64,000 bases of DNA from Bacteroidia bacterium (GTDB lineage: Bacteria; Bacteroidota; Bacteroidia; UKL13-3). The DNA lies in assembly GCA_023151275.1 (NCBI GenBank), contig JAKLJI010000008.1, positions 1 to 64,000 of the forward strand, read 5' to 3'. Shown piece after piece: positions 3,180-48,936 of this stretch. Both the position numbers and the translations under genes were made by a program. The notes below the pieces were generated by a model. The model did no database searches. It worked only from the letters and a program-made list of their open reading frames with translations, and was not told the DNA's origin. Within the stretch, counting starts at the first letter, position 1. Each line of letters opens with the position of its first letter.

Positions 3180-4380
3180 TGGCTATGGCTATTGGCAATA
3201 GCTATGGCTTTTGGATGCGTGAATGATTTTGAGTAGAGGGCCTTTTGCTTTTGGCCCTTTGCCCTTTGCCCTTTGCCATGAATTCGTGAAGGATTTAGAT
3301 TGATGCGGCTATAGCTTTGAATTACGTTTAAGATTCAACTTGATGAACTATGGCCATTGGCTATGGCTTTCATAGTGCCACCCGCCGGAGGCGGGTTAAA
3401 AGCAGAAATCGGCTTATGGATTCAAATGGTTTATGGATTCAAAAGCCATCGCCAATAGCTATAGCCATGGCTTCCATAGTGCCACCCCTAATGGGGTTTC
3501 AATTTTCATATTCTTACGGCACTATTCTACAATAATGCCACCCGCTGGAGGCGGGTTAAAAAAGCAGAAATCGTTCATGGATTCAAGTGGTTCATGGATT
3601 CAAAAGCCATCGCCAATAGCTATAGCCATGGCTCCCATAGTGCCACCCCTTACGGGGTTTCAATTTTCATATTCTTACGGCACTATTCTACAATAATGCC
3701 ACCCGCCGGAGGCGGGTTAAAAGCAGAAATCGGCTTATGGATTCAAATGGTTTATGGATTCAAAAGCCATCGCCAATAGCTATAGCCATGGCTATCATAG
3801 TTCCACCCCTTACGGGGTTTCAATTTTCATATTCTTACGGCATTATTCTACAATAATGCCACCCGCCGGAGGCGGGTTAAAAGCAGAAATGGTTCATGGA
3901 TTCAAAAGCCATCGCCATCGTTCAACAATTTAAATCGGTTACAAATACTTGCCAATCCGCCATGGGCGGATAAAGCCAAAAAGCAAAAGGCTCACCATTC
4001 AAAATCGGTAACGCTACTAAAGCTATCACCATAGCAAAACCAATTTCAATCGTTCACGACAATGTTGCCAAAGGCCAATTCCTAACGGCTAAAGGCCCAG
4101 AATTGAAAATCGTTCGCAAATCCAAATCCATCGCCATCGTTCAACAAATAAAATCGGTTAAAAATTCGACATTCACATTCGCCTGTCAGCCAAGGGCCAA
4201 TTGCAAATGGCTAAAGGCCCAGAATTGAAAAACGTTCACAAATCCAAATCCATCGTCTTATTAATTTAGATCGCTAAAGGAATCAAAGCAAAAGGCAAAC
4301 GGCAAATGGCCAATGGCCCAGCATTCAAAATCGTTCGAGAAATCAAAGCCATCGCCAATAGCCATCGCCATAGTTCATTA
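3180..4380. repeat. Non-coding block of permuted phrase repeats
   Basis: This 1.2-kb gap has no credible gene. It consists of short phrases reused in different orders, for example GCCATCGCCAATAGC, GGCCCAGAATTGAAAA, AAATCCAAATCCATCG and ATCGTTCAACAA. The left end (3180-3300) carries the phrases in the opposite sense to the right end (4260-4380): 'GGCTATTGGCAATAGC' and 'TTTGCCCTTTGCC' on the left against 'GCCAATAGCCATCGCC' and 'GGCAAATGGCC' on the right, so the block is a loose large inverted repeat. A tandem array sits in its middle. Two near-copies of one long phrase begin near 4067 and 4190. Confidence 0.75.
3376..3912. repeat. Tandem array, ~160-bp unit, 3.3 copies
   Basis: The phrase TGCCACCCGCCGGAGGCGGG recurs at 3376, 3536 (one mismatch), 3697 and 3857, a period of 160-161 bp. 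Each full unit holds two short hairpins: CCCGCCGGAGGCGGG followed by TTAAAA, and CCCCTTACGGGG followed by TTTCAATTTTC. Between them lie AT-rich phrases such as ATATTCTTACGGCACTATT. Units are nearly identical, with scattered single changes, so the expansion is recent. Hairpins with GG-CC arms and a T-rich side suggest REP-type elements, or transcription stops for the epimerase pair and the convergent efflux operon. ORFs of ~60-90 codons here are artefacts. Confidence 0.85.
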
Positions 4381-41124: not shown

Positions 41125-43938
41125 GTGAAGAACGAGAAACTGACAAGGAAGGAAATCATTGACAATCGCTTATTGCAAGCGGGTTGGAATGTTCCTGATC
41201 CAACTCAGGTGATAGAGGAGTTTGATATTCACTTGTTTGCTGTGGAAGACCCTTTGCAACATCCTTATGCGGGTCACCAATACAGTGATTATGTGTTGTT
41301 GGGAAGAGATGGAAAACCGCTTGCTGTGGTTGAAGCCAAAAAAACGTCGGTAGATGCGGCCTTGGGCCGCGAGCAGGCTAAACAATATTGCTACAATATT
41401 CAGAAGACACAAGGAGGTGAATTGCCTTTTTGCTTCTATACCAATGGACACGATATCTTCTTTTGGGATTTGGATAACTATCCTCCCAAAAAGGTCTTTG
41501 GCTTTCCAACTCGCGACGATCTTGAGCGCTATGCCTATATCCGCAAGGCGAGAAAGCAATTGGCCGGAGATTTTATCAATACCAAAATTGCAGGAAGAAG
41601 CTACCAGATTCAAGCCATACGTGCTGTGATGGAGGCGATTGAAAAACGGAAGAGGAAGTTTTTATTGGTAATGGCAACGGGTACAGGCAAAACCAGAACT
41701 TGCATTGCTTTGGTTGATGCACTCATGCGAGCCGGTTGGGCAGAACGGGTTTTATTTCTTGTTGACCGCATTGCACTTCGCGACCAAACTCTGGAAGCTT
41801 TCAAAGAGCATTTGCCGCATGAGCCGCGTTGGCCCAAACAAGGGGAGAAAGAAATTGCCAACGACAGGCGCATTTATGTTTCTACCTATCCAACCATGCT
41901 GAATGTGATTCGCAATGAAGACAAGCGTTTGAGTCCCCATTTCTTTGACCTAATTGTGGTGGATGAAAGTCACAGAAGCATTTACAATACCTACCAGGAA
42001 ATTCTGGATTACTTCAATACCATTACGCTTGGTTTAACTGCAACGCCGACCGATGTGATAGACCACAACACCTTTCAATTGTTTGAATGTGAAGATGGCG
42101 TTCCAACTTTCGCTTATTCGTATGAAGAGGCAGTAAATCATGTGCCACCCTTCCTGAGCAATTTTCAGGTAATGAAAATCAAAACCAAGTTTCAGGATGA
42201 AGGCATAAACAAACGAACCATTTCACTGGAAGACCAGCAGAAATTAATTTTAGAAGGCAAGGAAATTGAAGAGATTAATTACGAAGGAACCGAGATTGAA
42301 AAGAAGGTAATCAACCGTGGTACAAATGCTTTGATTGTCCGTGAGTTCATGGAAGAATGCATCAAAGATGCCAATGGCGTTTTACCCGGAAAGACCATAT
42401 TCTTCTGCATCAGCAAGGCTCATGCAAGGCGAGTGGAAGAGATTTTTGATTCGCTGTACCCGCAATACAAAGGCGAGTTAGCCAAAGTTTTGGTGAGTGA
42501 AGATCCGCGTGTTTATGGCAAAGGCGGTTTGCTCGACCAGTTTGTTCACAACGATATGCCACGCATTGCCATTAGTGTTGATATGCTCGACACCGGAATT
42601 GATGTGCGTGAATTGGTAAATTTGGTTTTTGCAAAACCCGTTTACAGCTATACCAAGTTTTGGCAAATGATAGGTCGAGGAACCCGCTTGTTGGAGCCGG
42701 AAAAAAGTAAACCCTGGTGTACCGAGAAAAACAATTTTCTGATTCTTGACTGCTGGGACAATTTTGAGTATTTCAAAATTAATCCGAAAGGAAAAGAGCC
42801 AAAGCCTCAAATTCCGTTGCCAGTGCGCCTGTTTGGTTTGCGCTTGGAGAAAATTGAAGAAGCCCAAGAACAGGGAGTTTGGACTATTGTAGAAAACGAA
42901 ATTCAGAAAGTCAGAAGGCAACTAGAAGCGCTTCCAAAAAATTCAGTTGTGGTTATGGAAGCCCGAAATGAATTGCAGCGCATGGACGATGAAAACTTTT
43001 GGAATAAACTCAGCTCCGATAAAATGGAGTTTTTAGACTCGGTTGTTAAACCTCTCTTGCGCTCCGTTTCGGATGTTGACTTCAAGGCTATGCGTTTTGA
43101 AAAAGACATGGTTGAAGTATCGTTGGCACATTTGGCAGGTGAAACCGAGAAGTTTGAAACCTTGAAGGAAAGCATCATCGAAGTAATTGGTGAACTGCCT
43201 TTGAGCATTAACGTTGTAGCGCGTGAAGAAGCCTTGATACGGCAAGCGCAAACCAATCATTTTTGGGCAAGCCCGCCTGATGCTGGTGTTGATTTTCTTG
43301 AGGCCAGGTTTGAAGAATTGATTCAGAAACTATCGCCCCTGATGAAATTCCGAGAAGCCGTAATTCCCTTAGCTCCTGCAAAATTTAACCTGAAGGATAT
43401 TCTCGTTGAAAAGGAATATGTAGAGTTTGGTCCACAGCACGAAGCCTTGAGTGTGGCCAAATACCGTGAATTGGTTGAGCAGAAAATCAATGAACTGGTT
43501 TCTAGCAGTCCGATTTTGCAAAAACTAAAACAAGGTCAAGAAATCACCAAAGAAGAAACCGAGCAATTAGCCGAGGAATTGCACAACGAGCATCCCCATA
43601 TTACCATTGATTTGCTTCGCAAGGTTTACAATCATCGCAAAGCAGCATTGGTGCAATTTATCAAACATATTTTAGGCATTGAGCAATTAGAAACCTTTGC
43701 CGAAACAGTTACCAAGGCTTTTGATGACTTTGTTTCAAATCACAGTTACCTTTCTGGCCGGCAACTTCAATTTCTTGATTTGCTAAAGAATTACGTATTG
43801 GAAAAAGGCGAGGTGAGCAAACGTAATTTGATAGAATCACCCTTTACCATGCTTCATCCCGAAGGAATACGCGGGGTTTTCACGCAAAGAGAGATTGATG
43901 AAATTCTAAGTTTAACCGAAAAAGTATTAGCTGCATGA
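41125..43938 (+). CDS. hsdR: Type I restriction endonuclease subunit R
   Basis: 937 residues from GTG 41125. The motor and nuclease of a type I restriction system, cutting DNA far from the site after ATP-driven translocation. N-terminal PD-(D/E)XK nuclease with Asp55 ('QYSDYVLLG') and 'VVEAKK' (Glu70-Ala-Lys72), then a superfamily 2 helicase: Walker A 'MATGTGKTRTCIAL', Walker B variant 'VVDESHRSIYNTY', motif III 'LGLTATP' and 'QMIGRGTRL'. The C-terminal third (~600-937) is helical, like the EcoEI/EcoR124 R-subunit tail that contacts the methylase. The stop overlaps the next start by 4 bp (ATGA), so the unusual Bro-N gene is coupled to it. Confidence 0.96.
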   Translation: MKNEKLTRKEIIDNRLLQAGWNVPDPTQVIEEFDIHLFAVEDPLQHPYAGHQYSDYVLLGRDGKPLAVVEAKKTSVDAALGREQAKQYCYNIQKTQGGELPFCFYTNGHDIFFWDLDNYPPKKVFGFPTRDDLERYAYIRKARKQLAGDFINTKIAGRSYQIQAIRAVMEAIEKRKRKFLLVMATGTGKTRTCIALVDALMRAGWAERVLFLVDRIALRDQTLEAFKEHLPHEPRWPKQGEKEIANDRRIYVSTYPTMLNVIRNEDKRLSPHFFDLIVVDESHRSIYNTYQEILDYFNTITLGLTATPTDVIDHNTFQLFECEDGVPTFAYSYEEAVNHVPPFLSNFQVMKIKTKFQDEGINKRTISLEDQQKLILEGKEIEEINYEGTEIEKKVINRGTNALIVREFMEECIKDANGVLPGKTIFFCISKAHARRVEEIFDSLYPQYKGELAKVLVSEDPRVYGKGGLLDQFVHNDMPRIAISVDMLDTGIDVRELVNLVFAKPVYSYTKFWQMIGRGTRLLEPEKSKPWCTEKNNFLILDCWDNFEYFKINPKGKEPKPQIPLPVRLFGLRLEKIEEAQEQGVWTIVENEIQKVRRQLEALPKNSVVVMEARNELQRMDDENFWNKLSSDKMEFLDSVVKPLLRSVSDVDFKAMRFEKDMVEVSLAHLAGETEKFETLKESIIEVIGELPLSINVVAREEALIRQAQTNHFWASPPDAGVDFLEARFEELIQKLSPLMKFREAVIPLAPAKFNLKDILVEKEYVEFGPQHEALSVAKYRELVEQKINELVSSSPILQKLKQGQEITKEETEQLAEELHNEHPHITIDLLRKVYNHRKAALVQFIKHILGIEQLETFAETVTKAFDDFVSNHSYLSGRQLQFLDLLKNYVLEKGEVSKRNLIESPFTMLHPEGIRGVFTQREIDEILSLTEKVLAA

Positions 43939-44786
43939 GCAAACAAACCGATATTAAACTCTTCGAGGATAAAAAAGTTAGAACGCTTTGGGATGAGGAG
44001 AAAGAAAAATGGTATTTATCAATTGTAGATGTGATTGCTGTTTTAACCGATAGCCCGAATCCAAGAAAATATTGGAGCGTGCTTAAAACAAGACTAAAAG
44101 CAGAGGGAAGCCAGTTGGCTACAAATTGTAGTCAACTGAAAATGCAATCAGCAGATGGCAAATATTATCTTACCGATGTAGCGGATACCGAGCAGCTTTT
44201 TCGCCTTATTCAATCTATTCCTTCACCCAAGGCCGAACCTTTTAAACAATGGTTGGCACAGGTAGCTGCTGAACGCTTAGATGAAATGCAAGATCCGGAA
44301 TTAAGCATTGATAGGGCACTCGAACAGTATATGAAACTTGGCTATTCAGAAAACTGGATAAACCAACGCCTTAAAAGTATTGAAGTTAGAAAGGAACTTA
44401 CAGACGAATGGAAAAAACGGGGATTGAAAGAGGGCGTTCAGTTTGCTACATTAACCGATATTATCACTAAAGCCTGGAGCGATAGAACCACCAAGGAATA
44501 CAAAGTGCTGAAGGGTTTGAAGAAAGAAAACTTGCGGGATAATATGACAAACACCGAACTCATTTTAAATATGCTTGCCGAGGCATCCACAAAAGACATA
44601 TCCGCAGCAACCAATCCGAAAGATTTTGAAGCAAGCAAGAAAGTAGCCAAACAAGGCGGAAATGTTGCAAAGGTGGCGCGCAAAGAACTGGAAGCTAAAA
44701 CAGGTAAGAGTGTAGTAAGCTCGTTAAATGCCAAAACCACATTGCAAGTGAATGCGGGAAATAAGAAAAAACTCAAGAAGAAATAA
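43935..44786 (+). CDS. Bro-N/DinD-like protein in the type I restriction operon
   Basis: 283 residues. N-terminal Bro-N-type DNA-binding domain ('VRTLWDEEKEKWYLSIVDVI', 'LTDSPNPRKYWSVLKTRLK', 'YYLTDVADTEQLFRLIQSI'), as in phage antirepressors and baculovirus BRO proteins. The C-terminal part ('LKEGVQFATLTDIITKAWS', 'NTELILNMLAEASTKDI', 'GGNVAKVARKELEAKTGKSV') resembles the C-terminus of the SOS protein DinD. It has ATGA overlap with hsdR and its TAA abuts the ATG of hsdM, so it is translated between R and M subunits. Genes like this do appear in Bacteroidota type I loci; a control or anti-phage sensing role is inferred, not shown. A decayed second copy follows hsdS. Confidence 0.88.
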   Translation: MSKQTDIKLFEDKKVRTLWDEEKEKWYLSIVDVIAVLTDSPNPRKYWSVLKTRLKAEGSQLATNCSQLKMQSADGKYYLTDVADTEQLFRLIQSIPSPKAEPFKQWLAQVAAERLDEMQDPELSIDRALEQYMKLGYSENWINQRLKSIEVRKELTDEWKKRGLKEGVQFATLTDIITKAWSDRTTKEYKVLKGLKKENLRDNMTNTELILNMLAEASTKDISAATNPKDFEASKKVAKQGGNVAKVARKELEAKTGKSVVSSLNAKTTLQVNAGNKKKLKKK

Positions 44787-46463
44787 ATGCTCCAAAACAA
44801 TACACAACTAAAATCACTAATCGATAAGCTCTGGCAGAACTTTTGGGAAGGCGGCATTGCTAACCCCTTAACAGCTATTGAGCAAATTACCTACTTCATT
44901 TTCATGAAACGTTTGGATGATTTGGAAGCCAAACGTGAACGAGATGCAGAATGGACAGGCGAAAAGTATGTTTCTCGCTTTTCGGGTAAGTTTCAAATTC
45001 CGGGAAGTAATGAAAGCATAGATAAAAACGATTTGCGTTGGAGTGTATTCAAGCACAAGCCCGCAGACGAAATGCTACTGCATGTGCAAATGAAGGTGTT
45101 TCCGTTTTTGAAGGAAATAAATAGTCAGAACCATGATTCGAGTGATTCAAGGATTACTAGGATTAGTTCAAGTACCGAACAAAAGAATCAAGAAAAGCAA
45201 AATCAAGACAATCAGCTAAATCACATAAATCAAGGTTCAGACAGTTTTACCAAACACATGGCCAATGCGGTGTTTATTATGCCAAAGGCCAGTTTATTGG
45301 TTTCCGCCATTGCCATTGTAGAAGATATTTTCAAAGAGATTGAAAAAGATGCCACCGAAGGCGGACATGCTTTTCAGGATATACAAGGCGATGTGTATGA
45401 AATGTTGTTGAGTGAGATTGCAACAGCAGGTAAAAACGGACAATTCCGAACGCCAAGGCATATCATTAAACTGATGGCTGAGTTGGTAGCTCCGCAATTG
45501 GGACAACGCATTGCCGACCCAGCTTGCGGAACAGGCGGTTTCTTGTTGGGTGCTTATCAATACATCCTCACCGATTTGGTAAGGAAGAAAGACCCGGCCA
45601 AGTTGCAAAAAGATGAGGATGGATTTGAGCGTGCCGCGATAAGTGCTGTATTGACCCAAGAAGTGAAAAGCATTTTGGACACCAGTTTTGTGGGCTATGA
45701 TATTGATACCACCATGGTGCGTTTGGGTTTGATGAACATGATGATGCATGGCATTGATGAACCCAAAATTGACTACAAAGACACCCTCAGCAAAAGCTAC
45801 AATGAAAACAGCCAGTTTGATATTGTATTAGCCAATCCACCCTTTACGGGCAATATTGACAAAGGCGATATTAACGAAGGCTTGAAACTGCCCACCACCA
45901 AGACAGAATTGCTTTTTGTGGAACGCATTTTTAACATGCTGAAAATGGGCGGCACGGCAGCGGTGATTGTACCCAGCGGGGTGATACAAAACAGTGGCAA
46001 GGCCTTTGAAGCTGTGCGAAAATTGATGATTGAACAGGCAGAACTGAAAGCGGTAATTGCAGTGCCTAGCGGAGCCTTTAAACCCTATGCAGGAGTAAGT
46101 ACAGCCATTTTGATTTTTACCAAAGGCGGAGAAACCAATAACGTTTGGTTTTACGATATGCAAGCCGATGGTTATACCTTGGATGACAAGCGAAACAAGA
46201 TAGCCGAAAGCGATTTGCCGGATATTGTAGCGCGTTACAAATCCAGAGATGCCAAGAAAGATGGCGATAGAAAGTTGAAGTTCTTTATGGTTCCGAAAAA
46301 GGAAATTGTAGAAAACAACTACGACCTGAACCTAAGCACCTACAAAGAAGAAGTGTATGAAGAGGTGGTGTATGAAAAGCCGGATGTGATTTTCGAGAAG
46401 TTGGAAAGTATTGAAGGGCAAATTCAAATTGGGTTGAAGGAATTGAAGGGACTGGTTAATTGA
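44787..46463 (+). CDS. hsdM: Type I restriction-modification DNA methyltransferase subunit M
   Basis: 558 residues, starting directly after the Bro-N stop. N6-adenine methylase of the type I system. N-terminal helical domain 'LIDKLWQNFWEGGIANPLTA' with 'EQITYFIFMKRLDDLE', SAM motif I 'IADPACGTGGFLLGAYQYI', catalytic NPPF motif 'FDIVLANPPFTGNIDKGDIN', and the C-terminal S-subunit interface. Residues ~113-152, between 'VFPFLKEI' and 'SFTKHMANAVFIMP', form a hydrophilic Asn/Gln/Ser-rich insert with no counterpart in the family; it is encoded by an inverted-repeat-bounded DNA element (45124-45242) that keeps the reading frame. Methylation competence with this insert is untested. Confidence 0.96.
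   Translation: MLQNNTQLKSLIDKLWQNFWEGGIANPLTAIEQITYFIFMKRLDDLEAKRERDAEWTGEKYVSRFSGKFQIPGSNESIDKNDLRWSVFKHKPADEMLLHVQMKVFPFLKEINSQNHDSSDSRITRISSSTEQKNQEKQNQDNQLNHINQGSDSFTKHMANAVFIMPKASLLVSAIAIVEDIFKEIEKDATEGGHAFQDIQGDVYEMLLSEIATAGKNGQFRTPRHIIKLMAELVAPQLGQRIADPACGTGGFLLGAYQYILTDLVRKKDPAKLQKDEDGFERAAISAVLTQEVKSILDTSFVGYDIDTTMVRLGLMNMMMHGIDEPKIDYKDTLSKSYNENSQFDIVLANPPFTGNIDKGDINEGLKLPTTKTELLFVERIFNMLKMGGTAAVIVPSGVIQNSGKAFEAVRKLMIEQAELKAVIAVPSGAFKPYAGVSTAILIFTKGGETNNVWFYDMQADGYTLDDKRNKIAESDLPDIVARYKSRDAKKDGDRKLKFFMVPKKEIVENNYDLNLSTYKEEVYEEVVYEKPDVIFEKLESIEGQIQIGLKELKGLVN
45124..45242. repeat. Inverted-repeat element inserted in frame in hsdM
   Basis: 119 bp with imperfect terminal inverted repeats GTCAGAACCATGATT (45124-45138) and AATCAAGGTTCAGAC (45228-45242), 13 of 15 positions complementary. 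Inside, GATT words on the left mirror AATC words on the right at 8-9-bp spacing, so the whole element could fold as a long loose hairpin. It encodes an Asn/Gln/Ser-rich linker in HsdM. Similar noncoding repeats are familiar in Bacteroidota genomes; coding insertions parallel the Rickettsia palindromic elements. Confidence 0.7.
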
Positions 46464-46482
46464 AATTTGCGTAAGTGAAGAG

Positions 46483-46800
46483 TTAACCGCAAAGAGCGCA
46501 GAGTTTAGCGCAGAGAACGCGAAGAGAAAATGCTTAGCGGCCTTTGCGAAAACCCTTAGCGACCTTAGCGGTAAAAAAGGATTAACCGCAAAGAGCGCGA
46601 AGTTTAGCGCAGAGAACGCGAAGAGAAAATGCTTAGCGGCCTTTGCGAAAACCCTTAGCGACCTTAGCGGTAAAAAAGGATTAACCGCAAAGAGCGCGAA
46701 GTTTAGCGCGAAGAACGCCAAGAAGAGCTGCTTAGCGGCCTTTGCGAAAACCCTTAACGAACTCTGCGGTAAAAAGGGTAACCGCAAAGAGCACGAAGTA
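46483..46800. repeat. Left AACCGC repeat array (3 units of 99 bp)
   Basis: TTAACCGCAAAGAGCGC begins units at 46483, 46582 and 46681, exactly 99 bp apart; a fourth start (TAACCGC at 46779) is truncated. Each unit ends with the inverted counterpart GCGGTAA, so units are partly self-complementary, and each carries CTTAGCG words. It lies directly after the hsdM stop. A minus-strand ORF of 151 codons is only translated repeat. Confidence 0.9.
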
Positions 46801-46835
46801 TTTTTTGTTTGGAATTAGTATTTTAGAGTGCATTC

Positions 46836-46843
46836 AAAGGAGG
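46836..46843 (+). promoter_or_regulatory. Strong ribosome-binding site of the GxxExxY gene
   Basis: AAAGGAGG seven bases upstream of the ATG at 46848 (AGGAACA spacing included). A full Shine-Dalgarno sequence like this is unusual among the genes of this window, most of which have none. Confidence 0.75.
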
Positions 46844-46847
46844 AACA

Positions 46848-47225
46848 ATGACAGAAAACGAATTGTCGAATAAGATAATCGGGGCGGCCATTAAAGTACA
46901 TAGTGCACTTGGACCTGGGTTGCTTGAAAGCGCATACCAAGAGTGCTTGTATTATGTGCTAAAAAAGGAAGGGTTGAAAGTGGAGCGGGAGAAGCCCATG
47001 CCTTTGGTATTTGAAGAGGTGAAACTAGATTGTGGATACAGGATAGATTTGTTGGTTGAGAATAAAGTTGTTGTTGAACTTAAAAGCGTTGAAGCATTGA
47101 ATGATGTCCACATGGCGCAAGTGTTGACTTATTTGAAACTTGGAGAATTTAAACTCGGCTTACTAATCAATTTCAATGTGACATTGATAAAGCAGGGGGT
47201 AAGAAGGGTTGTTAATGGAATATAA
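46848..47225 (+). CDS. GxxExxY protein, PD-(D/E)XK nuclease-like
   Basis: 125 residues. Signature 'GLLESAY' (the GxxExxY motif) in 'HSALGPGLLESAYQECLYY'. PD-(D/E)XK-type core: Asp in 'DCGYRIDLLVENKVVVELKS', with 'ELK' as the E-x-K pair, then 'HMAQVLTYLKLGEFKLGLLI' and 'NFNVTLIKQGVRRVVN'. The fold is that of restriction-like nucleases, but the activity has not been defined for this family as far as I know. The gene sits between hsdM and hsdS with AACCGC repeat arrays on both sides and has a strong Shine-Dalgarno. The arrangement looks like a repeat-bounded cassette that split the restriction operon. Confidence 0.9.
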   Translation: MTENELSNKIIGAAIKVHSALGPGLLESAYQECLYYVLKKEGLKVEREKPMPLVFEEVKLDCGYRIDLLVENKVVVELKSVEALNDVHMAQVLTYLKLGEFKLGLLINFNVTLIKQGVRRVVNGI

Positions 47226-47232
47226 AAAAAGT

Positions 47233-47367
47233 TTAACCGCAAAGAGCGCGGAGTTTGATGCGAAGAGAATATGCTTAGCGACCTTAGCGAAATACTTAGC
47301 GAACTCTGCGGTAAAGAAGGCGAACCGCAAAGAGCGCGGAGTTTAGCGCAAAGAACGCGAAGGAGGA
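47233..47367. repeat. Right AACCGC repeat array
   Basis: Unit starts TTAACCGCAAAGAGCGC at 47233 and GAACCGCAAAGAGCGC at 47322, with the internal words CTTAGCGACC and GCGGTAA seen in the left array. It ends near 47367 in GCGAAGGAGG, which could also serve as a ribosome-binding site for hsdS 24 bp farther on. Confidence 0.85.
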
Positions 47368-47390
47368 TTTGTAACTAAAATGTTGATGTG

Positions 47391-48596
47391 ATGAAATTTG
47401 AAAAACTAACAGAATTAATAGATGAACGAATCACCGGAGAATGGGGCCAGGAGGCAGATTTTTCAGGTGTTAGTGTGATAAGAACAACAAATTTTACAAA
47501 TGAGGGGAAGCTTGATTTGTCAAATGTTGTTAAGCGAAATATTGAAAAAAAGAAGATTGAGAAAAAGTCTTTGAAAAAGGGAGATATTATCATTGAAAAG
47601 TCAGGAGGCGGCCCAACTCAGCCAGTGGGAAGGGTAGTTTATTTTGATGTTGAATCAGATGGAATTTTTTTGTGTAATAATTTCACAACCATTTTAAGAC
47701 CAAAGTTGAATTTGGTTAATTCTAAGTACCTGCTTTATCAAATGCTCTATTTGCATAAATCAGGAAGGTCAAAACGGTATCAAAATAAAACGACGGGGAT
47801 TCATAATTTGAATCTTGAAAAGTATCTTCAAGAGAAAATTGCACTTCCCCCACTTCCCGAGCAACTCCACATTGCCAACATACTTAGCAAAGCCGAAAAC
47901 CTGATTGCCCAACGGAAAGAAAGCATTCACCTGCTGGATGAATTTTTGAAAAGCACGTTTTTGGAGATGTTTGGGGATCCTGAAAAGAATCCAAAGAATT
48001 TGCCATTTACAGAACTTGAAAAACTATGTGCGATTATTGTTGATTGCCCTCATTCCACACCTGTAAAATCCAAAGAGGCAACGAATTATCCTTGTATCAG
48101 AACATCCGAATTAACTAAAGGATACATTTCATGGGATTCAATGCAATATCTGGATGAAGAAGAATATATTAAACGAATACAGCGTCTAATTCCTGAGGCT
48201 GGTGACATAGTTTACGGAAGAGAAGGGACTTATGGGGAAGCAATACGAATTCCTAAAACACATAAATTTTCATTAGGTCAACGAACAATGCTATTTAGAC
48301 CTGATTACACAAGAACAAATAGCATATTTCTGTGGGCAATGGTTCGTTCTGAATTTGTTTACAGACAAGCCAAAAAGAAGAACAGTGGTTCAACAGTTGG
48401 TCATGTTAATGTTAAAGACATAAAGCAATTCAGAGTTTATTATCCCCCCATCGAACTCCAAAACCAATTTGCCCAAATCGTAGAAAAAACAGAAGCCCTC
48501 AAAAGCCAATACCAACAAAGCTTGCAGGAGTTAGAGAACTTGTATGGCAGTTTGAGCCAAAAGGCGTTTAGAGGGGAGTTGCGCGTGAATGCTTGA
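47391..48596 (+). CDS. hsdS: Type I restriction-modification specificity subunit S
   Basis: 401 residues from ATG 47391. It recognises the two halves of the methylation/restriction site. Two target-recognition domains are separated by conserved helical linkers: TRD1 ~1-150 (ending 'LNLEKYLQEKIALPPLPEQL'), linker 'HIANILSKAENLIAQRKESI', TRD2 ~195-340 (ending 'VKDIKQFRVYYPPIELQNQF'), and the second linker 'VEKTEALKSQYQQSLQELEN'. The ending 'LYGSLSQKAFRGEL' is the usual family tail. Predicted sequence specificity cannot be read off. It is separated from hsdM by the repeat-flanked GxxExxY cassette, yet all three subunits appear intact. Confidence 0.95.
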   Translation: MKFEKLTELIDERITGEWGQEADFSGVSVIRTTNFTNEGKLDLSNVVKRNIEKKKIEKKSLKKGDIIIEKSGGGPTQPVGRVVYFDVESDGIFLCNNFTTILRPKLNLVNSKYLLYQMLYLHKSGRSKRYQNKTTGIHNLNLEKYLQEKIALPPLPEQLHIANILSKAENLIAQRKESIHLLDEFLKSTFLEMFGDPEKNPKNLPFTELEKLCAIIVDCPHSTPVKSKEATNYPCIRTSELTKGYISWDSMQYLDEEEYIKRIQRLIPEAGDIVYGREGTYGEAIRIPKTHKFSLGQRTMLFRPDYTRTNSIFLWAMVRSEFVYRQAKKKNSGSTVGHVNVKDIKQFRVYYPPIELQNQFAQIVEKTEALKSQYQQSLQELENLYGSLSQKAFRGELRVNA

Positions 48597-48730: not shown

Positions 48731-48936
48731 GTTGAAAGCAAACAAGTTCGAACGCAATGGGATTAAGAAGGGGAAATACGGTATTTTTCAGTGATAGATG
48801 TTGTAGAAATTTTAACTGATAGTTCAAATACACGAGATTATTGGTTTATAATGATAAAATGAGTTAGAACTGAAGATGGGCTTGAACTGTCGACAATTTG
48901 TCGACAGTTGAAAATGAAAGCAGATTCCGGCACAAA
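48731..48936 (+). pseudogene. Decayed second copy of the Bro-N gene
   Basis: One continuous frame encodes 'KQVRTQWD', a TAA stop at 48764, 'EGEIRYFSVIDVVEILTD', 'SSNTRDYWFIMIK', a TGA stop at 48860, then 'VRTEDGLELSTICRQLKMK'. This aligns residue for residue with the N-terminus of the intact Bro-N gene ('KKVRTLWDEEKEKWYLSIVD...LTDSPNPRKYW...CSQLKM'). Two in-frame stops and no intact start show it is dead. Only the Bro-N domain remains; the DinD-like part is missing. It directly follows hsdS, so the locus once had a Bro-N gene at both ends or exchanged one. Confidence 0.85.

Follow-up and report, generated by a model that had tools for sequence, protein, structure and literature searches.

A GxxExxY gene and palindromic word arms inserted between hsdM and hsdS of a Bacteroidia type I restriction operon

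Described systems and how the element compares

Palindromic inserts in bacteria include the Rickettsia palindromic elements and the MITEs. In the genomes examined here we likewise found inserts of palindromic DNA, including one that keeps the reading frame of hsdM, together with gene-less derivatives; terminal inverted repeats (TTAACC..GGTTAA) and empty sites are further features shared with DNA transposons and MITEs. Unlike in those elements, our searches found no transposase partner and no general target duplication.

The closest described logic is that of the REPINs and their RAYT transposases (PMC3116915). In both systems, short palindromic repeats are dispersed and mostly extragenic, a partner gene is flanked by them, and repeat type and partner co-vary. 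The partner there is a Y1 tyrosine HUH transposase, whereas the sole family match of the gene studied here is PF13366, a PD-(D/E)XK family; moreover, this gene, annotated GxxExxY, lies within the palindrome, the arms consist of 7-bp words spaced by 9 or 21 bp, and copies per genome are few. Intervening sequences of 23S rRNA, with their S23 open reading frame (TIGR02436), also place a small ORF between inverted arms, but GxxExxY is an unrelated protein, its words are different, and its arms bear no signature of RNA pairing. With Cas4, solo-Cas4 and RecB-type nucleases (PMC5704561), GxxExxY shares a predicted PD-(D/E)XK fold, the QxxxY motif and a weak match to Cas4 sequences, and a GxxExxY call has been reported where another tool called cas4 (PMC8934634). 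It differs from Cas4 in its length of 125 aa, in the lack of conserved Fe-S cysteines and of accompanying cas genes, and in having its own palindromic array. Free-standing homing endonucleases, as described in PMC3943268, are small nuclease genes that form their own mobile units at intergenic sites, a likeness to the GxxExxY element, which in turn carries its own recognition-like array and for which homing-like cutting is putative. A description of the association between GxxExxY and repeats was not found in the open-licence literature, and papers outside it could hold one.

The insert between hsdM and hsdS

The window, that is, the whole 64,000-nucleotide stretch of DNA analysed, contains a type I restriction operon on its forward strand, as are all features given below. 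It comprises hsdR (41125–43938; ResIII and EcoEI_R_C domains), an ORF with a BRO-N domain (43935–44786; PF02498, E = 4e-11), hsdM (44787–46463; N6_Mtase and HsdM_N) and hsdS (47391–48596; Methylase_S, start set by homology to locus L287). An apparent broken BRO-N-like fragment, recognised by eye only, lies 3′ of hsdS at about 48740–48900. Between hsdM and hsdS is the GxxExxY gene (46848–47225), which matches TIGR04256 (E = 4e-45; 152.9 bits, cut-off 35) and PF13366 (PDDEXK_3; E = 6e-44; 149.6 bits, cut-off 22). These matches, the catalytic residues and the fold model bear out the PD-(D/E)XK-like core that had been read from the bare sequence in an earlier note. A full Shine-Dalgarno sequence, AAAGGAGG, is indeed present at 46836–46843, 4 nt 5′ of the ATG; its proposed value as a sign of foreign origin was not supported, as inspection of upstream sequences found it not to be general among these genes.

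The gene is accompanied by repeats of the AACCGCAAAG type, which a search of the whole 3.9-Mb genome confined to this locus. On the left there are three units, as the earlier note had said, abutting head to tail (46483–46581, 46582–46680 and 46681–46778), but they are not exact copies of a 99-bp sequence: their lengths are 99, 99 and 98 bp, and comparison with the middle unit gives identities of 98%, 100% and 88%. They are followed by a left half unit (GTAACCGCAAAGAGCACGAAG; 46779–46799) directly 5′ of the gene. On the right, where two units had been counted, there is one complete but shorter unit (47233–47320; 78% identical to the middle left unit), and the second is a truncated left half unit only (47323–47362). 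Each unit is an imperfect palindrome without a gene, in which the 7-bp words CGCAAAG, CGCGAAG and CGCAGAG (in general, CRCDRAG) return inverted in the opposite half (for instance as CTTTGCG). Three single-strand folds of left-array units gave z scores of −4.3 to −2.3 against shuffles. A CRISPR array was rejected, as the left units abut without spacers. Elsewhere in the window, at positions 3372–3906, a 160-bp unit is repeated in tandem 3.3 times.

That this segment is an insert follows from a relative (genome G091, locus L287) that has the same operon with nothing between hsdM and hsdS, the hsdM stop overlapping the hsdS ATG; the two operons are 86% identical along 1.7 kb of hsdM and 82% identical along hsdS. 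The earlier note had proposed just this comparison and had taken 46464–47390 as the segment separating hsdM from hsdS, which it is; alignment to the empty site (blastn) sets the insert at 46470–47400, a length of 931 bp. A 9-bp direct repeat, TGAAATTTG, brackets it, the left copy (46461–46469) including the hsdM stop and the right copy (47392–47400), which is counted within the insert, overlapping the hsdS start ATG at 47391; the empty site holds it once, as TGAAGTTTG. By its sequence, this repeat resembles a target duplication, and it could be a single case. We hold that reading to the window only, because no direct repeats above chance were found at 21 isolated gene-less copies. A possible duplication of about 28 bp at the right junction (p = 0.016 against random window segments) is not claimed.

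The same operon harbors a second palindromic element, gene-less and in frame within hsdM, at 45124–45242. Its words belong to a different family (GTCAGAACCATGATT..AATCAAGGTTCAGAC), and its arms are those that also bracket the GxxExxY genes L002 and L003 of this genome. This GTCTGAAC-family palindrome adds about 36 codons that are missing in 16 of 17 HsdM homologues, and hsdM of G091 carries a diverged copy of it. The special link to type I restriction suggested by the position of the gene was not borne out: most GxxExxY loci lie elsewhere, between unrelated genes such as hemW and arylformamidase, ScpB, fabD and fabG, or radA. With these contexts and the empty operon of G091, a role of GxxExxY as a type I restriction accessory was rejected.

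Gene, arms and turnover across genomes

The source genome encodes three further GxxExxY genes, each with its own palindromic repeat of the same plan, as judged from their arms: L002 and L003 sit between inverted arms GTCTGAACCATGATT..AATCAAGGTTCAGAC, and at L004 ATGAAG words form a 98-bp array 5′ of the gene. We surveyed 198 genomes of the phylum, of which 101 carry GxxExxY in 1–12 copies each. In all, 113 GxxExxY loci were collected. Nearly all loci inspected have word arms beside the gene, mostly pointing at it from both sides. Spaced CRCDRAG words occur within 300 bp of 94/113 GxxExxY genes versus 7/141 control ORFs at the same loci (p = 5e-41), so that the claim that gene and repeats belong together stands. 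Similarly, an inverted repeat above the 99th percentile of shuffles brackets 58/110 GxxExxY genes but only 4/154 other ORFs of these loci. Chance repeats were rejected by the shuffles and the control ORFs, and a control with the reversed pattern was near zero. Word offsets peak at 9, 21 and 30 bp, the word nearest the gene points inward in ratios of 75:22 upstream and 74:18 downstream, and within one locus nearly all words are of the CGC type or nearly all of the CAC type. Loci without CRCDRAG often have other words (for example L002–L004, L039, L046 and L055). The gene and its palindromic word arms are thus one unit. The earlier view of the repeats as what is left of a small mobile unit, or as its target, is not supported: at most loci the gene forms the palindrome's loop, which makes the arms part of the unit.

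Arms of the same kind accompany distant plasmid-borne relatives in Gemmatimonadota, Spirochaetota, Fusobacteriota and Bacteroides, while a Sphingomonas plasmid relative has an upstream (left) arm only. On a Sphingomonas megaplasmid (L212), a GxxExxY gene stands between fabD and fabG of a fatty acid operon. Overall, there were 8 matches to GxxExxY among 72,556 plasmid records and none among 50,697 phage records.

The element has been inserted and lost repeatedly, in line with the mobile-unit-like behavior that had been proposed. We classed the intergenic site between hemW and arylformamidase in 46 species of one genus (that of G025), presumably Flavobacterium to judge from the named loci L089, L113 and L127 that share this site. 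It is empty in 11 species, holds GxxExxY with arms in 7 and a gene-less CRCDRAG palindrome in 14 (two of these, L217 and L262, moved by eye from the class "other"); the remainder are 9 palindromes of other words, 3 GIY-YIG genes (PF01541; L216, L242 and L260) between inverted arms, which at L216 are of the ATGCTGAACTAGTTTCAGCATC type, and 2 other states. On a tree of the flanking proteins, this distribution requires at least 19 state changes, part of which could be explained by host recombination of the flanks. A second site, preceding scpB in genus g48, is occupied in four species and empty in three, and in one further species it holds a decayed remnant with its arms. Two GxxExxY genes are decaying in place, one a remnant with arms (L145 in G038) and one with a frameshift (L219 in G250).

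Gene-less copies follow the gene as well. The two-word pattern was found in 57/101 genomes with GxxExxY versus 7/97 without (p = 3e-14). Repeats occurring apart from the gene, which the earlier note had named as evidence against a link, do occur, but 57 of the 64 pattern-positive genomes carry the gene, and of the seven exceptions four are chance matches within coding sequence and three are real palindromes in genomes in which no gene was detected. The chromosome of one genome (G170) has some 29 matches to the pattern scattered along it. Copies that share a genome resemble one another no more closely than those of sister species do (0.66 and 0.65, respectively); the copies are old, and no recent burst of transposition was caught. 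In sum, the observation made at this locus is confirmed and extends well beyond the window, and the interpretation first given to it is partly supported.

The predicted nuclease and competing explanations

Residues E27, D67, E77-x-K79, Q91 and Y95 of the window protein are invariant in 46 relatives. An AlphaFold2 model (pLDDT 95) has as its nearest solved fold the Cas4 protein SSO0001 (Z = 9.8; 101 residues superposed with an rmsd of 4.3) and also resembles other PD-(D/E)XK nucleases of the RecB and Hjc types; Foldseek returned no match below E = 0.001 for this model, and a sequence search returned no solved relative. Cas4 sequence models match the protein weakly (E = 7e-4). The four cysteines of the Cas4 Fe-S cluster are absent, as no cysteine is invariant or nearly so in the 46 GxxExxY sequences. 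As modelled, GxxExxY has a Cas4/RecB-like PD-(D/E)XK fold whose catalytic residues are conserved, and is a predicted nuclease. With dN/dS of 0.02–0.09 for orthologous copies, the intact catalytic site is under purifying selection. Divergence between proteins goes with divergence in word spectrum (Mantel r = 0.23, p < 0.001; 0.22 after allowing for GC). V/A or I at residue 122 goes with CGC or CAC words (Fisher 1e-16), and T or S at residue 7 with word position 5 (Fisher 2e-13); the supported independent contrasts number only four (3:0 and 2:0). As both residues adjoin the arms and independent contrasts are few, physical linkage explains this tracking as well as recognition does.

We lean towards the reading, drawn from sequence patterns, that the insert is a copy of a widespread, selfish palindromic element whose predicted nuclease recognises its own word array. 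In its full form, the element consists of a CRCDRAG arm with 9- and 21-bp spacing, the GxxExxY gene, the same words inverted, and TTAACC..GGTTAA ends, the gene typically forming the loop of the palindrome; gene-less palindromes would be deletion or trans-mobilised derivatives of it. The small Cas4/RecB-like nuclease would most likely recognise the words as duplex DNA and may cut or process DNA at the arrays, with the element spreading or being retained through host repair, as in homing-like copying. Here we infer word binding, cleavage and a nuclease that moves the element, and a nuclease that both reads the words and drives the unit would be the simplest account. Several findings weigh against this reading: the copies show no recent burst, gene-less copies in general lack a target duplication, host recombination could account for some of the turnover at hemW, linkage to the arms can stand in for recognition at residues 7 and 122, and three genomes have real palindromes but no detected gene. 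A bolder form of this reading seems to us possible rather than probable, namely that autonomous elements occurring across phyla are moved by a 125-residue Cas4-like nuclease reading phased 7-bp words that form the element's own ends, with no known transposase or recombinase, and that S23 and GIY-YIG elements are parallel classes with words of their own.

Outside rRNA, four-helix S23 genes (TIGR02436; L181–L210) lie in palindromes of the same plan at 19/30 loci versus 2/60 shifted controls, each between inverted arms of short tandem words that are particular to the locus and unlike those of GxxExxY. The same plan with wholly different words suggests either that several such classes exist in parallel or that one mobiliser serves them all and the genes are its passengers. 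Under the latter, the palindrome would be non-autonomous and moved in trans by another enzyme (a transposase, a reverse transcriptase or recombination), with GxxExxY, S23 and GIY-YIG genes caught in its loop. Two unrelated small gene families in similarly built palindromes, and several word families sharing the hemW site, are what one would expect of it. We nevertheless consider it unlikely: the words differ from one gene family to the next, with CRCDRAG pairs at 94/113 GxxExxY versus 0/30 S23 loci, palindromes are almost restricted to gene-bearing genomes, and selection on the GxxExxY gene is strongly purifying. The last of these, measured at orthologous sites, would equally suit a domesticated-like nuclease that, with its chromosomal sites, serves the host in repair, chromosome upkeep or defence and owes its spread chiefly to horizontal transfer and to homologous recombination of the flanking DNA; the near absence from phage and plasmid records and the age and divergence of the copies agree with this. 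Such a host function is, however, difficult to square with the patchy presence of the gene (about half of the genomes, in varying copy number), its decay in place and by frameshift, and the repeated gain or loss at single sites, and we regard it as quite improbable.

An explanation at the level of RNA, modelled on the intervening sequences of 23S rRNA, would have the arms pair in the transcript and the looped ORF processed out, for example by RNase III, leaving the insert harmless within operons. Single units fold well, with z scores reaching −4.3, the insert lies between co-directional operon genes, and S23 genes, known from intervening sequences according to a paper cited in PMC3936711, have the same layout. 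If the hairpin were maintained, the spacers between words should pair, and in an RNA stem G·U should be tolerated more than A·C on the transcribed strand. Word position 2 agrees between arms in 90% of 42 gene-less units and in 100% of 16 gene-bracketing pairs (null about 50%), whereas spacers agree in only 19% and 6%, respectively (null 8–10%), the former slightly above chance (p = 0.02). G·U is not in excess over A·C in arm pairing (158:205; 29:38 in gene-less units), and the element has no match in Rfam. As the words match, the spacers hardly do and G·U is not in excess, selection appears to act on DNA words and not on a hairpin RNA, so that an RNA-level account is very unlikely. The arm pattern is consistent with the words being recognised in duplex DNA, as in the selfish-element reading that we prefer.

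For annotation, these findings suggest that small operon genes labelled "GxxExxY protein" are often inserts and not members of the operon. Sequenced genomes commonly contain repeats of the AACCGCAAAGAACGCAAAG or ACCACAGAGGACACAGAG type, for which we found no assigned partner. Should GxxExxY be that partner, a family present in half of the sampled genomes of the phylum would acquire a role that can be tested, experiments could address where a class of intergenic palindromes comes from, and a minimal nuclease whose word target is modular could represent a new kind of element mobilisation.
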